Part shown: positions 15,091 to 23,118 of the stretch, piece by piece | How the letters are laid out: each line of letters begins with the position of its first letter | How positions within the stretch are numbered: the first letter of the stretch is position 1 | Source of the DNA: Candidatus Competibacteraceae bacterium | GTDB taxonomy: Bacteria > Bacteroidota > Bacteroidia > CAIKAF01 | DNA: 33,805 nt | NCBI GenBank assembly: GCA_014879445.1 | Contig: JACSSC010000050.1 | Span: forward strand, 1-33,805 | Reading direction: 5' to 3' | Position numbers and translations under genes: made by a program | The notes under the pieces: generated by a model | The model's input: the letters and a program-made list of their open reading frames with translations, nothing else | Database searches by the model: none | Told to the model about the DNA's origin: nothing

Positions 15091-15098
15091 TAAATTTG
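15091..15098 (+). promoter_or_regulatory. -7 promoter element of the T9SS type B gene
   Basis: TAAATTTG exactly fits TANNTTTG, 21 bases before the ATG at 15120. It overlaps the upstream in-frame TTG (15096), which argues that translation starts at 15120. A TTTTG lies at 15071-15075, but closer than the usual -33 spacing. Confidence 0.6.
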
Positions 15099-15119
15099 GT
15101 TTTTAAAACCAAGTTTGTT

Positions 15120-17711
15120 ATGAAGCATTTACGTATTCTCATTTTGCTTTTTTGGGCTCTGCCATGCACATGTACTAACCTATTGGCACAAGCGCCTGGA
15201 TGTCCTGATGTGGATGCCGGCACCGATGTTAACTTGGCATGTGGTGGATGCACAAACCTGACGGCAACACCATTTCATGTTGGAAGTACAAATACTTATG
15301 CTGTTTCTTTTGTACCTTATGCACCACCATACCCATACAACTCAGGCACATCCATATTTGTTGGGCAGGATGATATTTGGAGTGACGTGATTAATCTGCC
15401 GTTTGATTTTTGTTTTTTTGGCAATACATATAATCAGATTGTGGTAGGCGCCAATGGATTGATTTCTTTTAATACCTCTTTAGCAAATTCATATTGCACT
15501 TGGAGCTATTCTGCATCATTGCCCAGTTCTTCTTTATACACAAACTCTATTTTTGGCGCATATCACGATATTGACCCGTCTGTATGTGGAAATATTTATT
15601 ATGCCATCCTGGGCTCGGCGCCATGCCGCACATTTGTCGTAAACTACTACAACGTATGTCATTATAGTTGTACAAGCATTCAAACTACCCAACAGATTGT
15701 ATTGTACGAAACAACCAACGTGATAGAAGTATATATTCAAGATAAACCTACCTGCTCGGGATGGAACTCAGGCAACGCACTGATAGGAATTCAGGATGCA
15801 ACCGGCACAAGTGCATTTTGGCCTGCGGGCTATAATACCGGCCCTTGGTCTGCATATAATATGGGATTTCGATTTACTCCGGACGGCCCTCCGGCATATA
15901 CCTTAGAATGGTTTGATGGCGCCAACCTGATTGCCACCAATACGCCCACAATCAATGTATGTCCGGGCAGCAATACCATGTACACAGCAAAAGTTACATA
16001 CAGTGGTTGTAACTTAGTAAACCCCGTTGTTGTAACAGATGATGTATGGGTAAACGTAACAGGTATTCCTACCGGTGCCAATAGCAACAGCCCGATTTGC
16101 GAAGGGCAAACACTTCAACTACAGTCGCAGGGTGGATATGTATCATACCAATGGTCAGGCCCCAGCGGGTTTACGTCTACATCCCAAAACCCCAGCATTA
16201 CCAATGCTACTACGGCCAACTCAGGTGTTTATACTGTTACCGTTGATGATGGAACCGGAACCTGTTCATCCACCATTACTGTTCAGGTAAATCCATACCC
16301 TACAGCAACAGCCCAAAACGACGGGCCTGCTTGCGTAGGCGACAATGTTACTTTTTCAGCCACCAGTGGCACATCCTATAGTTGGGCAGGCCCCAACGGA
16401 TTTTCATCCTCATCATCCGATACAACACTCACAGGAGTTACCACATCGGCCTCTGGCATATATACCGTTACGGTTACTTCTAATGGCTGCTCATCAACTG
16501 CCACAACCAGTTTGGTTGTAAATAATATTCCATCAGCCACCGTGGCAGGAAATGATAATATATGCTCAGGAGCATCCACAACGCTTACGGCAGGAGGCGG
16601 AAATACTTATCTTTGGAGTACCGGCGAAACAACATCTTCGATTACGGTTTCTCCTGCCACAAATACTACATATACAGTAACTGCATCAAACGGTGGCTGT
16701 AACGATACAGCAAGCATCGCCATTAATGTCGTACCATCTCCAACACCCGCTGTTGATGGCATTGTGGAAATATGTAACGGCGATTCATTAGTCATTACGG
16801 CTTCTGGAGGCACTGACTACGTTTGGAATACCGGTGCAACTTCTGCTGCTATCAACATTCCTGCAGGCGCTTATACTGTTACTGTTTCGGATGCAACATC
16901 TTGCACTGCAACCATGTCTGTTACAGTTCCCCTAAGCCCAAATCCGAATACAGGATTTACAGCTAGCATTGCTTGTGTTGGTGCTGCAACCAACTTCACC
17001 AATACTTCTACCATCACATCAGGAAGTATTACCGACTATTTATGGGATTTTGGAAGTGGCAACACCAGCACCATAGAAGATCCCAACTTCACATTCTCCA
17101 GCCCCGGAACTTATACGGTTTCGCTTACAGCCACTTCAGCTTTTAACTGTACAGCATCCTATTCGGCACAGGTAATAGTTGGCGGCGGTCCTGACATCTC
17201 CATGCAATTACTGGCACTATGCTTTGCACAATTGCAAGCAACAGGCATCAATAACGACACATCTATACAAGTATCTAGCTGGACTTGGGATTTTGGAGAT
17301 GGGAATGGCGATAATGGATTCATGGTTGCTCATCCTTATTCCCAACAAGGCACATATACAGTTTTGCTCACCGGAACCGATATCTACGGATGTGAAACCA
17401 CAATCTCCGAAAGTTTCACTACAAAAGGAGGAAAAACACTCGATCAAATTATTTTCCCCAATGTAATTACACCCAATGGTGACAACCAAAATGATGAGAT
17501 TGTAATGGACCCCGAATTTGAAGAATGTTCGCCATACATACTTACCATTTATAACCGATGGGGATTCAAGGTATTCGAGTCTGAAAACTATGGCCCAACA
17601 TTCAAGGGCATTTCAACTACTGACGTTACCATCGTGCCAGGCGTGTATTTCTTGGTTATTCGCTCAAATGATTTATCATACAATGGCACAATAACCATCT
17701 TGGGGAATTAA
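15120..17711 (+). CDS. T9SS type B (CHU_C) surface protein with Ig-like and PKD repeats
   Basis: An 863-residue exported protein. A signal peptide (1 to about 24, ending LLAQ) is followed by a Cys-rich N-terminal domain (about 28-315) with VGANGLISF and FGAYHDIDP, resembling a nidogen-like beta domain. Four Ig-like repeats follow (about 318-392, 396-468, 471-538, 541-604). Each has a Cys in an ICEG/ACVG/ICSG/ICNG turn and a YTVTV strand with a second Cys nearby. Two PKD-type domains follow (about 609-688 and 690-768: LWDFGSGN, WTWDFGDGNG). The end (774-863) is the gliding-motility-type C-terminal domain: FPNVITPNGDNQND, IYNRWGFKVFES, PGVYFLVI. Such tails direct secretion and attachment by T9SS. 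It is likely a surface adhesin or matrix protein. The start at 15120 was chosen for the signal peptide and the promoter. Confidence 0.92.
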   Translation: MKHLRILILLFWALPCTCTNLLAQAPGCPDVDAGTDVNLACGGCTNLTATPFHVGSTNTYAVSFVPYAPPYPYNSGTSIFVGQDDIWSDVINLPFDFCFFGNTYNQIVVGANGLISFNTSLANSYCTWSYSASLPSSSLYTNSIFGAYHDIDPSVCGNIYYAILGSAPCRTFVVNYYNVCHYSCTSIQTTQQIVLYETTNVIEVYIQDKPTCSGWNSGNALIGIQDATGTSAFWPAGYNTGPWSAYNMGFRFTPDGPPAYTLEWFDGANLIATNTPTINVCPGSNTMYTAKVTYSGCNLVNPVVVTDDVWVNVTGIPTGANSNSPICEGQTLQLQSQGGYVSYQWSGPSGFTSTSQNPSITNATTANSGVYTVTVDDGTGTCSSTITVQVNPYPTATAQNDGPACVGDNVTFSATSGTSYSWAGPNGFSSSSSDTTLTGVTTSASGIYTVTVTSNGCSSTATTSLVVNNIPSATVAGNDNICSGASTTLTAGGGNTYLWSTGETTSSITVSPATNTTYTVTASNGGCNDTASIAINVVPSPTPAVDGIVEICNGDSLVITASGGTDYVWNTGATSAAINIPAGAYTVTVSDATSCTATMSVTVPLSPNPNTGFTASIACVGAATNFTNTSTITSGSITDYLWDFGSGNTSTIEDPNFTFSSPGTYTVSLTATSAFNCTASYSAQVIVGGGPDISMQLLALCFAQLQATGINNDTSIQVSSWTWDFGDGNGDNGFMVAHPYSQQGTYTVLLTGTDIYGCETTISESFTTKGGKTLDQIIFPNVITPNGDNQNDEIVMDPEFEECSPYILTIYNRWGFKVFESENYGPTFKGISTTDVTIVPGVYFLVIRSNDLSYNGTITILGN

Positions 17712-19655: not shown

Positions 19656-20165
19656 ATGAAACCTCGTGTGGGCATAATTATGGGAAGTTCGAGCGACCTG
19701 CCGGTGATGAAAGAGGCAGCCGATTTCCTTGAGTCCATGCACATCCCCTTTGAAATAACAGTTGTTTCAGCACATCGTACGCCAAATCGCATGTACGAAT
19801 ACGCCTCACAAGCAAAAGAAAGAGGTATTCAGGTGATTATTGCCGGAGCCGGTGGTGCTGCGCATTTGCCTGGTATGGTTGCATCCATTACAACATTGCC
19901 CGTTATTGGGGTACCCATCAAATCTTCCAATTCCATTGATGGATGGGACTCTATTTTGTCCATCCTCCAAATGCCCAATGGTATTCCTGTTGCTACAGTT
20001 GCTCTAAATGCTGCCAAAAATGCCGGCATATTATCAGTCAGCATTCTTTCCGCCTTCGATAACGAGATTGCAACGCGTTTCATTCAATTTAAAGACAGCT
20101 TAACACAAAAAGTTTTGGACAGCATAAAAGATTTTGATAATTTGGGCTATGAAAATCAGGTGTAA
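19656..20165 (+). CDS. purE: N5-carboxyaminoimidazole ribonucleotide mutase (PurE class I)
   Basis: A 169-residue enzyme of purine synthesis that converts N5-CAIR to CAIR. The family signature is complete: GIIMGSSSDLPVM near the N-terminus, SAHRTP (about 39-44) with the catalytic His, AGAGGAAHLPGM (about 65-76), and GVPI with a SILQMPNGIPVATVA stretch (about 108-122). The length is normal for class I PurE, which works with PurK. No purK is present here; the other purine gene, purH, lies 4.3 kb downstream. It is the third gene of a tightly spaced plus-strand run that continues into two outer-membrane protein genes. That places a housekeeping enzyme within an envelope-related transcript. Confidence 0.96.
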   Translation: MKPRVGIIMGSSSDLPVMKEAADFLESMHIPFEITVVSAHRTPNRMYEYASQAKERGIQVIIAGAGGAAHLPGMVASITTLPVIGVPIKSSNSIDGWDSILSILQMPNGIPVATVALNAAKNAGILSVSILSAFDNEIATRFIQFKDSLTQKVLDSIKDFDNLGYENQV

Positions 20166-20191: not shown

Positions 20192-21019
20192 ATGACACAA
20201 CCAACGCTACGAATTCATTTTATTCTGTTTTTCTTTCTTGCTTACCCACTGAGTTGGTCGCAAAATCAACCTGTTGGTGCACGCTCAGCAGCGCTAGGCA
20301 ATGCCTCAGTTACACTGTTTGATGTTTGGGGTGCATACAACAACCAATCAGCCACAGGTTGGCTACAACATATTGAATGTGGCGCCTATTACGAAAATCG
20401 TTTCATCTTACCAGAACTCAGCAGCCAGGGGCTTGCTGTTGTCGTACCTGTAAAAAAAGCCGGTTCTTTCGGTTTTAATTTTACACGATTTGGATACACC
20501 CAATACAATGAAAATAAGTTTGGATTCTCTTATGCACGAAAATTCGGGCCTATATTTTCTGCCGGACTGCAAATAAATTTGCACTGGATACATATTGGAC
20601 AAGGGTACGGCGATTTGATTACAGCTACAGGTGAACTCTCTTTTACCGTAAAGCCCTTGCCCAAATGGATTATAGCTGCTCATGTATTCAACCCTACACG
20701 AACGCCATTGGCAGAATATGACCGTGAAAAAATTCCTACTCTTTTCAGAATCGGCACCTCATATGCTTTTCACGAAAAAGTATTGGCCTGTACCGAAATT
20801 GAAGCAAGCATTCACGATACCCCCATTTTTAGAATGGGCGTAGAATATCACGTCATTCCCATCTTAAACCTACGTGCAGGATTTAGCTCATATCCTGTTT
20901 CTCCCAGCTTCGGGTTCGGACTGCATATTAAAAATTTCAAACTCGATGCGGCAGCTTCTTGGCAACCCATTTTAGGATTCTCGCCTCAGGCATCATTGAG
21001 TTATGCTTTCGGAAAATGA
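20192..21019 (+). CDS. outer-membrane barrel protein, PorQ/PorV-like
   Basis: A 275-residue exported protein with a signal peptide ending WSQ (about residue 24). The mature N-terminus PVGARSAALGNASVTL and VWGAYNNQSA matches the opening of the PorV/PorQ family (GARS/A-G-A-x-V, then NP/NQ-A). Strands of alternating character run to the final SLSYAFGK. PorV and PorQ are FadL-like barrels, and PorQ/PorV themselves take part in T9SS. This protein is a divergent, shorter relative and its role is unknown. Its stop overlaps the start of the next gene (ATGA at 21016-21019), so translation of the two is coupled. Confidence 0.78.
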   Translation: MTQPTLRIHFILFFFLAYPLSWSQNQPVGARSAALGNASVTLFDVWGAYNNQSATGWLQHIECGAYYENRFILPELSSQGLAVVVPVKKAGSFGFNFTRFGYTQYNENKFGFSYARKFGPIFSAGLQINLHWIHIGQGYGDLITATGELSFTVKPLPKWIIAAHVFNPTRTPLAEYDREKIPTLFRIGTSYAFHEKVLACTEIEASIHDTPIFRMGVEYHVIPILNLRAGFSSYPVSPSFGFGLHIKNFKLDAAASWQPILGFSPQASLSYAFGK

Positions 21020-23118
21020 AACAACGATTGATTTATATATTCCCACTGCTATCTTTGATAGCAAACTGCCAGAGCTGGGCTCAAACCAATGCACTTATTA
21101 AGGAAAATATTATTGAACGATTCATTGAAACTATATCAGAAAACAGCGAACAGGAAATAGATTTTACTGCGCTTACAGAAGATTTGTATTATTATTTTGA
21201 TAACCCCATCAATCTTAATCAAACCACCGAAGATGAGCTAAAACGACTTTATTTACTCTCCGAACATCAGATTAATGCATTGCTTACATATATCGAAAAA
21301 CATGGAAAGCTACTCTCAATCTATGAAATACAATTGCTTTCAGGATGGAACGATGAAACCATTTATGCTATTCTTCCTTTTGTGGATGTGCAGCCCGTAA
21401 AAGAAAAATCCAAACTTAAATTCAAAAATATTTTTCGCTATGGCAAACACGAAATTGTAACACGCTACACTCGAATTATTGAACCGGCTGCTGGATTCTT
21501 AATGAACAACACCAATGATACAAAAGGATATCTCGGCGACCCCTCTCAAGTTTTTTTTCGTTATCGTTTTACCTACAAAGACAGAGTAAGCCTTGGACTG
21601 GTAGCAAAAAAAGATAGAGGGGAGGAATTCTTTACGGGTACCCAACCCTACGGTTTTGATTTTTATGGCGCCCACCTTTTTATTAAAGATTTAGGACCAT
21701 TTAAAAAAATTGCTTTGGGCGATTACAATTTGCAGTTTGGACAAGGATTAACCATGTGGACAGGATTCGGATACAGGCGTACGGCCATGGCCATGAACAT
21801 CAAACGCTTCCCGTCAGGTATCAAACCCTGTTCGGCAACCAATCAAGCGTTCTTTAATAGAGGACTTGCTGCAGAGGCAGGTATCGGCCCCGTTTCTATT
21901 ACAGGTTTCATTTCTTTCAAACCAAGAAGTGTAAGTGTGAGTCAGCTTGACACACTAGACGGTGATGTGCTTGAATTCTCCTCACTCGACGAAACCGGAT
22001 TACATCGCACACTTACCGAAGTAAATAAAAAAAACAGGATATACGAACTCATTGCCGGAGGTAATGTAACTTTCAAAAAAAGAAAATGGAACATTGGTAT
22101 TACTTCTGCCTATACATACTACACGGCATCTCTCACTTTAAGCGATGCGCCATACAACCGATATCGTTTTCAAGGCAATCAACTTTTTAATATCGGTGTA
22201 GATTATAACATTTTGTTGGGGAAATTTTATCTTTTTGGGGAACTTGCTTTTAGCGGCAATGGAGGCCATGCCTTTTTACAAGGTGTACAAGCACAACTCA
22301 GCAACGACTTTTCGCTTGCATTATTGATAAGAGATTATGCCCCTTCATACCAAAACATGAATAATAATGCGTTTGGCGATCGCAGTCAAAACGAAAACGA
22401 AAGAGGTGTTTATCTTGGATTTTCAGCCATACCTGCTCCAAAATGGACCATTACTGGGTATGTTGATGTATTTCAGTTTCCATGGTTGCGATATAATGTT
22501 GACGCACCATCTTTCGGATACGAATGTTTGTTGCAAGCCACTTTTGTTCCTAACCGAAAAACAGAAATTTATACACGGATTCGAAGATCTAGCCGACAAG
22601 AAAACTCAGTATTAGATGATGAATATACAGACCCATTGGTACATGTTGACAAAACACATTACAGATTAAATTTTACTTATGAAGTTAATTCACAATTAAA
22701 ACTGCGATCCAGAATGGAGTTTGTAACACTTGAACGGGCTGACAAACCCTTTCGGTGGGGCATGTTGGCCTACCAGGATATTGTATATAAACCCGCGCCT
22801 ATACGACTCGACATTTCAGCACGCTTAGCTTTTTTTCATACCGATGATTTTGACACACGTTTGTATGCTTATGAAAATGATGTTTTGTATAGCTTCTCTG
22901 TTCCTGCCTATTACAATAAAGGAATGCGCTTTTATATTCATCTGAAATATGAAATCATTCCTGGATTCAGTATCAGTTGCAGAGTGGCGCAATCATATTT
23001 TGCTAATCAAAAAACAATCGGAAGTGGCTTGGATTTAATAGATGGAAATACGCGTACCGAAATCAAAGCGCAACTCAGATATCGCTTTGGTGTATATCGT
23101 AAAAAGAAATTGTCATAG
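21016..23118 (+). CDS. helix-hairpin-helix domain outer-membrane barrel protein
   Basis: A 700-residue exported protein starting at the ATG in the ATGA overlap with the previous gene; an upstream TTG at 20959 is unlikely because it would put 19 extra residues before a good signal peptide (1 to about 23, ending SWAQ). Residues about 60-125 are two ComEA-like helix-hairpin-helix units (NPINLNQTTEDELKRL, then LSIYEIQLLSGW). The remaining about 570 residues are a large beta-barrel-like region with many amphipathic aromatic strands, ending in IKAQLRYRFGVYR, typical of barrel closure. Related proteins are frequent in Bacteroidota but not characterised. HhH units usually bind DNA backbones, or sometimes proteins. 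The domain would face the periplasm, so a link to DNA passage is a hypothesis only. Confidence 0.83.
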   Translation: MKQRLIYIFPLLSLIANCQSWAQTNALIKENIIERFIETISENSEQEIDFTALTEDLYYYFDNPINLNQTTEDELKRLYLLSEHQINALLTYIEKHGKLLSIYEIQLLSGWNDETIYAILPFVDVQPVKEKSKLKFKNIFRYGKHEIVTRYTRIIEPAAGFLMNNTNDTKGYLGDPSQVFFRYRFTYKDRVSLGLVAKKDRGEEFFTGTQPYGFDFYGAHLFIKDLGPFKKIALGDYNLQFGQGLTMWTGFGYRRTAMAMNIKRFPSGIKPCSATNQAFFNRGLAAEAGIGPVSITGFISFKPRSVSVSQLDTLDGDVLEFSSLDETGLHRTLTEVNKKNRIYELIAGGNVTFKKRKWNIGITSAYTYYTASLTLSDAPYNRYRFQGNQLFNIGVDYNILLGKFYLFGELAFSGNGGHAFLQGVQAQLSNDFSLALLIRDYAPSYQNMNNNAFGDRSQNENERGVYLGFSAIPAPKWTITGYVDVFQFPWLRYNVDAPSFGYECLLQATFVPNRKTEIYTRIRRSSRQENSVLDDEYTDPLVHVDKTHYRLNFTYEVNSQLKLRSRMEFVTLERADKPFRWGMLAYQDIVYKPAPIRLDISARLAFFHTDDFDTRLYAYENDVLYSFSVPAYYNKGMRFYIHLKYEIIPGFSISCRVAQSYFANQKTIGSGLDLIDGNTRTEIKAQLRYRFGVYRKKKLS

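Follow-up and report, generated by a model that had tools for sequence, protein, structure and literature searches.

Introduction

Among the closest described counterparts of the locus studied here is the transformation machinery of Riemerella anatipestifer, in which RA0C_RS04915, RA0C_RS04920, RA0C_RS02645 and comEC are essential and which its authors, in the accessible part of their report, deem unlike known machineries (PMC8459023). In the model set out there, RA0C_RS04915, a barrel with a CarboxypepD-reg domain, and RA0C_RS04920, a DUF5689 protein, act with ComEC and a ComEA-like helix-hairpin-helix (HhH) protein. In other systems, the PilQ secretin lets DNA pass the outer membrane, and the SprA-PorV translocon of the type IX secretion system (T9SS) combines a large barrel with a PorV-like partner. 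Large single barrels of ~24-26 strands are found in the FimD/PapC usher and in MtrB.

Here, we analysed a 33,805-nt stretch of Bacteroidota DNA (the window) in which a predicted outer-membrane barrel protein with an HhH module, hereafter the HhH barrel, is encoded beside a PorV-like protein. Like the Riemerella pair, this locus joins an outer-membrane barrel to a partner gene, but the gene is a different one: the Riemerella-type barrel has no HhH module, its profile matches other places in the four genomes that carry both, and the two are nearly exclusive in their distribution within the class. PilQ is alike in the role proposed here, and differs in its Secretin domain (PF00263), which was not found in the HhH barrel; the window's genome has no secretin. 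SprA is far larger (~2,400 aa), and its occurrence is not linked to that of the HhH barrel. With FimD/PapC and MtrB we see a similarity of fold only, at 6-9% identity, and neither a chaperone nor a cytochrome partner was seen. ComEA and periplasmic proteins of the RA0C_RS02645 type share the HhH module and have no barrel. A search of the open-access literature found nothing that links an HhH barrel protein to DNA uptake; in the accessible part of another report, the B. thetaiotaomicron HhH domain protein BT3167 appears in an iron-dependent stimulon table with a value of -3.7 (PMC10434189).

Results

A large barrel gene overlaps a PorV-like gene

The preliminary description had placed the HhH barrel gene correctly, its ATG and stop giving a protein of 700 aa (Table 1), and the ATGA overlap with a second barrel gene was borne out. 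The signal peptide proposed there stands as a signal-peptide-like N terminus that is visible by eye and helical in the model. Within the acidic segment that follows, E38 is invariant in 60/60 homologues. The purE-like gene upstream is probably not part of the unit. Elsewhere in the window, positions 15096-17711 encode a PKD-repeat protein with a CHU_C type IX secretion signal domain.

Table 1. Features of the HhH barrel locus, in window coordinates.
Feature	Position	Strand	Remarks
Upstream purE-like gene	19656..20165	+	name by eye; found in 29/81 loci
PorV/FadL-like outer-membrane barrel protein (partner), 275 aa	20192..21019	+	ends TGA at 21017-21019
ATGA overlap of stop and start, putative translational coupling	21016..21019	+	read in sequence
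HhH barrel protein, 700 aa	21016..23118	+	
Signal-peptide-like N terminus, residues 1-23	21016..21084	+	seen by eye; modelled as helix
N-terminal segment, helical and acidic, residues 24-63	21085..21204	+	
Tandem HhH module with degenerate hairpins, residues 64-123	21205..21384	+	
Barrel of 24 predicted strands, residues 144-692; outer loops and basic lumen-facing positions conserved	21445..23091	+	

The second barrel had been called PorQ/PorV-like. We found that it matches PorV_fam (NF033709) with E 1.8e-11 and 44.2 bits, against a cut-off of 90. Its AlphaFold2 model (pLDDT 92) has ~14 strands, and Foldseek places it in the PorV/FadL fold, with PorV of the T9SS as the best match (8gl6_F, TMq 0.75) and a TMq of 0.73 to 6h3i_F. 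By profile and fold, the partner is related to the PorV/PorQ family, without being a certified member.

All 15 genomes of the order carry the HhH barrel with a PorV-like gene alongside. Among 81 loci (80 named loci and the window), the PorV-like gene lies immediately upstream of the HhH barrel in 71; six of the other ten have another gene upstream, and four have no upstream ORF in the stretch covered. The two ORFs overlap in 42 of the 72 named loci with both, and are 0-30 bp apart in 25 and more than 30 bp apart in 5. In Chlorobiaceae, no PorV-like partner was found next to the barrel in any of five regions.

The HhH module is related to ComEA but lacks DNA-binding hallmarks

The two HhH-like units that had been read at ~60-125 form one tandem (HhH)2 module, as confirmed by homologues and by the AlphaFold2 model, with helices at 72-76, 83-96, 102-107 and 113-122. 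Taken singly, the window protein matches Pfam HHH_3 over residues 64-123 with E 0.011 and NCBIfam comE with E 6.8e-4, both under the curated cut-offs. The HhH match is not a chance one, since HHH_3 is matched by 49/60 homologues (best E 1.2e-11) and the profile of the 60 homologues finds the ComEA structure 8dss with E 3.9e-5 at positions 68-127. It is for the family, then, that homology to the HhH of ComEA holds.

The preliminary description took the module to bind DNA, in which case the barrel's own HhH would grip incoming DNA as ComEA does. The homology to ComEA speaks for this, as does the retention of both hairpin-2 glycines in 5/15 homologues from other families. However, when 104 barrel proteins were scored for GxG (60 of alignment A3, 24 from family f2, 5 from Chlorobiaceae and 15 others), the motif was found in hairpin 1 of none and in hairpin 2 of those five alone; neither hairpin has it in any of the 60 homologues of alignment A3. 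No conserved basic residues were found in the hairpins in the homologue alignment, and residues 24-130 carry a net negative charge in 60/60 homologues. As a control, the separate ComEA-like proteins of f2 (~300 aa) keep GIG in their middle unit (9/10 by alignment, the tenth by eye), and most of their units are basic or neutral. Because GxG is missing from the hairpins and the N-terminal part is acidic, the barrel HhH is unlikely to be a DNA-binding clamp, and a docking or structural role probably fits better. With degenerate hairpins, an acidic module and no conserved basic residues, we rejected the reading that the HhH of the barrel itself binds DNA, which we consider highly improbable. Among the signs that had been named as speaking against it, the loss of conserved basic or Gly residues from the hairpins was found, whereas the HhH helices are present in the predicted structure.

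The third unit of the f2 ComEA-like proteins is itself without GxG, and it is to this unit that the barrel HhH is closest (29-47 bits, vs 4-22 for units 1 and 2).

The barrel gene is followed by comEC in one family

Family f2 was first spotted by comparing the coordinates of barrel and ComEC matches: here comEC, identified by Pfam Competence (3.6e-60), starts at or a few bases from the end of the HhH barrel gene. A search of 61 f2 genomes gave a barrel match with E no higher than 1e-100 in 48 (own count), and we examined the best 30 of this search together with 3 earlier loci and, as the 34th, L214. On the same strand, comEC is the next gene after the HhH barrel in 30/33 loci, or 31/34 with L214, and the three exceptions (L159, L167 and L171) belong to one genus. 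Wide flanks were compared for 24 loci: 23 of them have the barrel-comEC pair, the two genes overlapping or lying no more than 6 nt apart in 21 of the 23, and 21 of the 24 have the PorV-like gene immediately upstream. Genes outside the run PorV-like / HhH barrel / comEC vary between loci. The B. subtilis comEA-comEC genes have the same order. comEC was found near the HhH barrel in none of the 80 named loci, nor in the other sampled families. Since the adjacency is confined to one lineage, it probably reflects one founding event.

This run bears on the earlier guess that the pair forms a channel for DNA. The ground given for that guess, DNA binding by the HhH units, is not borne out, but the DNA-channel reading gains support from the f2 gene run.

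A recQ-like helicase gene directly follows comEC in 6/24 f2 loci (L145, L203, L204, L205, L208 and L214), and its domains were confirmed in L145. In family f6, a ComEA-like HhH gene lies within ~1 kb of comEC in 4/4 genomes (G051, G078, G172 and G176). In 6/20 regions from families outside the class, the PorV-like gene has the gene for PorD (NF052317, DUF4835) as its divergent neighbour (L181, L182, L183, L185, L186 and L189). The neighbours in other lineages, which include genes for EPSP synthase, DHQ synthase, proline dehydrogenase, LpxD and a SpoIIE domain, show no shared theme.

The predicted barrel has conserved outer loops and a basic lumen

AlphaFold2 was run for the HhH barrel on 60 sequences and gave a model with a mean pLDDT of 86 and a pTM of 0.82. 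The ~570 residues of barrel strands noted earlier are modelled as a barrel whose two ends are periplasmic; from residue 144 to 692 we count 24 strands of transmembrane length. Mean conservation is highest in the outer loops (0.61), followed by the strands (0.54) and the periplasmic turns (0.44), and the best-kept motifs lie in outer loops 200-215, 241-280 and 610-634, as would be expected if these loops folded inward as a gate. Lumen-facing positions were assigned by hydrophobicity, which places charged residues inside by construction; so assigned, they are net basic in 60/60 HhH barrels and in 18/56 PorV-like partner barrels. Within the HhH barrel lumen, 19 positions are >80% Lys/Arg and 12 are >80% Asp/Glu. 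The Riemerella-type barrel is not basic overall.

Fold searches covered the barrel region without the HhH region. The best VIA-align scores were to AlgE and Wzi (Z ~16), over only 288-307 residues at ~6 A, and five FimD usher rows gave Z 13-15 over 378-387 residues at 4.2-4.4 A, barrels matching barrels. We claim no barrel kinship, because Foldseek TM to large barrels is only ~0.25-0.38. A PHROGs search found nothing.

The AlgE and Wzi matches, together with the broad distribution of the barrel, would also suit a general outer-membrane transporter that imports or exports a different polymer or a small solute (polysaccharide, nucleotide or metal), for which the comEC adjacency would be a frozen accident in one family. 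In most nutrient receptors, however, the outer loops are not more conserved than the strands, as they are here, and across f2 genera the run PorV-like / barrel / comEC persists despite reshuffled flanks. We regard such a transporter as quite unlikely.

The HhH barrel is widespread and not tied to type IX secretion

We found an HhH barrel match in 148/178 sampled phylum genomes. After dropping 11 with a short or weak match only (best E above 1e-12; G071, G098, G113, G129 and G132 in the class, G015, G020, G032, G080, G149 and G170 outside it), 137/178 remain, in agreement with the earlier description of the family as widespread. The barrel is present in 38/38 sampled Chlorobiaceae. This is family f16, for which an assignment to Bacteroidaceae was rejected: the FMO protein, present in 10/10 tested, points to Chlorobiaceae.

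Co-occurrence with ComEC, which the preliminary description had put forward as a check, is real but uninformative, because ComEC is present in 177/178 phylum genomes, including 44/44 of the class. The Riemerella RS02645 type of ComEA-like protein was likewise found in 44/44 class genomes (in the window's genome at G000:C9:25156-26046). Secretin occurs in 6/44 class genomes, all of family f5, and in 16/38 Chlorobiaceae. With ComEC and the ComEA-like protein in all 44 class genomes and secretin in six, any DNA uptake in these genomes would require a different channel in the outer membrane.

In one alternative, the pair would serve type IX secretion as an accessory or alternative translocon that exports or anchors proteins; the PorV-like protein would be a shuttle or lid bound to the large barrel, and the HhH would bind proteins as that of the pseudopilin GspK does. 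The resemblance of the partner to PorV, the divergent PorD in regions from other families and the five FimD alignments are consistent with this, and 11/60 members match the GspK first domain, while one f2 member matches T2SS_GspK (7.2e-5). However, SprA, present in 139/178 genomes, is absent from all 38 Chlorobiaceae, which all carry the HhH barrel, and is found in 17/17 f5 genomes, which all lack a full-length HhH barrel. The pair is thus not tied to the T9SS, and a T9SS-like role leaves the run with comEC unexplained. Since the occurrence of barrel and SprA is unlinked, we rejected a T9SS part as the main reading and judge it unlikely.

The HhH barrel and the Riemerella-type channel rarely share a genome

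The Riemerella-type channel family was rebuilt from f5 genomes (CarboxypepD-reg domain, DUF5689 neighbour) and counted at a score of at least 350 bits; f5 appears Flavobacteriaceae-like because of this locus. Among the 44 class genomes, 16 have the HhH barrel only, 22 the Riemerella-type channel only, 4 both and 2 neither (HhH barrel 20, Riemerella-type 26), with a Fisher p of 1.5e-6 for exclusion before correction for relatedness. On a quick ComEC tree with several weak or long branches, the two states change 6 and 7 times; among 5 independent pairs, about half differ in opposite directions and hardly any in the same direction (p 0.25, sign test). The near mutual exclusion is not significant after this correction and is suggestive only. 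In the window's genome, DUF5689 was not found, and the best match of the Riemerella-type profile is partial (E 2.9e-32) and on another contig; a domain search found no CarboxypepD-reg domain in the window's HhH barrel protein.

In f5, a secreted-looking endonuclease/exonuclease/phosphatase family protein is encoded divergently beside the Riemerella-type channel gene in 5/6 regions by eye (L136-L139 and L141), and the one tested matches Pfam Exo_endo_phos_3 (1.2e-114). It could be the single-strand-making nuclease that the accessible part of the Riemerella report does not assign (PMC8459023).

Discussion

On the evidence of sequence and predicted structure, we lean slightly towards the view that the HhH barrel and its PorV-like partner belong to DNA uptake at the outer membrane. 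We count in favour of a DNA-uptake channel the f2 run, a class largely without secretin, the split with the Riemerella-type channel, the basic lumen, the likeness to the third ComEA-like unit, and the barrel in all sampled Chlorobiaceae (green sulfur bacteria), a group with Chlorobaculum tepidum, which the accessible part of one report describes as naturally transformed as routine (PMC3842273). Against it we count the adjacency in a single lineage, an HhH without hallmarks, the exclusion p of 0.25, the PorD neighbour elsewhere, the partner that is not adjacent in 5 Chlorobiaceae regions and the secretin in 16/38 Chlorobiaceae, as well as lumen charges placed inside by construction and a Riemerella-type barrel that is not basic overall.

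In those Bacteroidota and Chlorobiaceae whose natural transformation involves no type IV pilus secretin, the outer-membrane gate would be the HhH barrel, together with the PorV-like partner in genomes that have one. The arginine-rich lumen would be the entry path for DNA, gated by the conserved outer loops, and the PorV-like barrel would stand beside the HhH barrel as PorV stands beside SprA. The periplasmic HhH module, itself not gripping DNA, would dock the true DNA-binding protein, a separate ComEA-like protein with three HhH units and, by eye, an N-terminal membrane-anchor-like segment, which would pull DNA to ComEC. What we observed is the sequence, the gene pair, the predicted fold, the degenerate hairpins, the gene order with comEC and the distribution; channel function, gating, docking and stoichiometry are what we infer from them. 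More tentatively, and with some doubt, the pair may be an ancient non-secretin DNA channel common to Bacteroidota and Chlorobiaceae that was displaced by the Riemerella-type barrel in Flavobacteriaceae-like lineages, its HhH docking and handing DNA to ComEA and ComEC.

These observations bear on the route that DNA takes across the outer membrane where a type IV pilus secretin is lacking: almost every genome of the phylum sample has ComEC, yet most genomes of the class have no secretin. The pair is a named candidate whose operon can be tested, and the transformable C. tepidum belongs to the group, which makes the question directly testable. In conclusion, the HhH barrel and its partner may be relevant to gene transfer in a major bacterial group with gut, soil and marine members.
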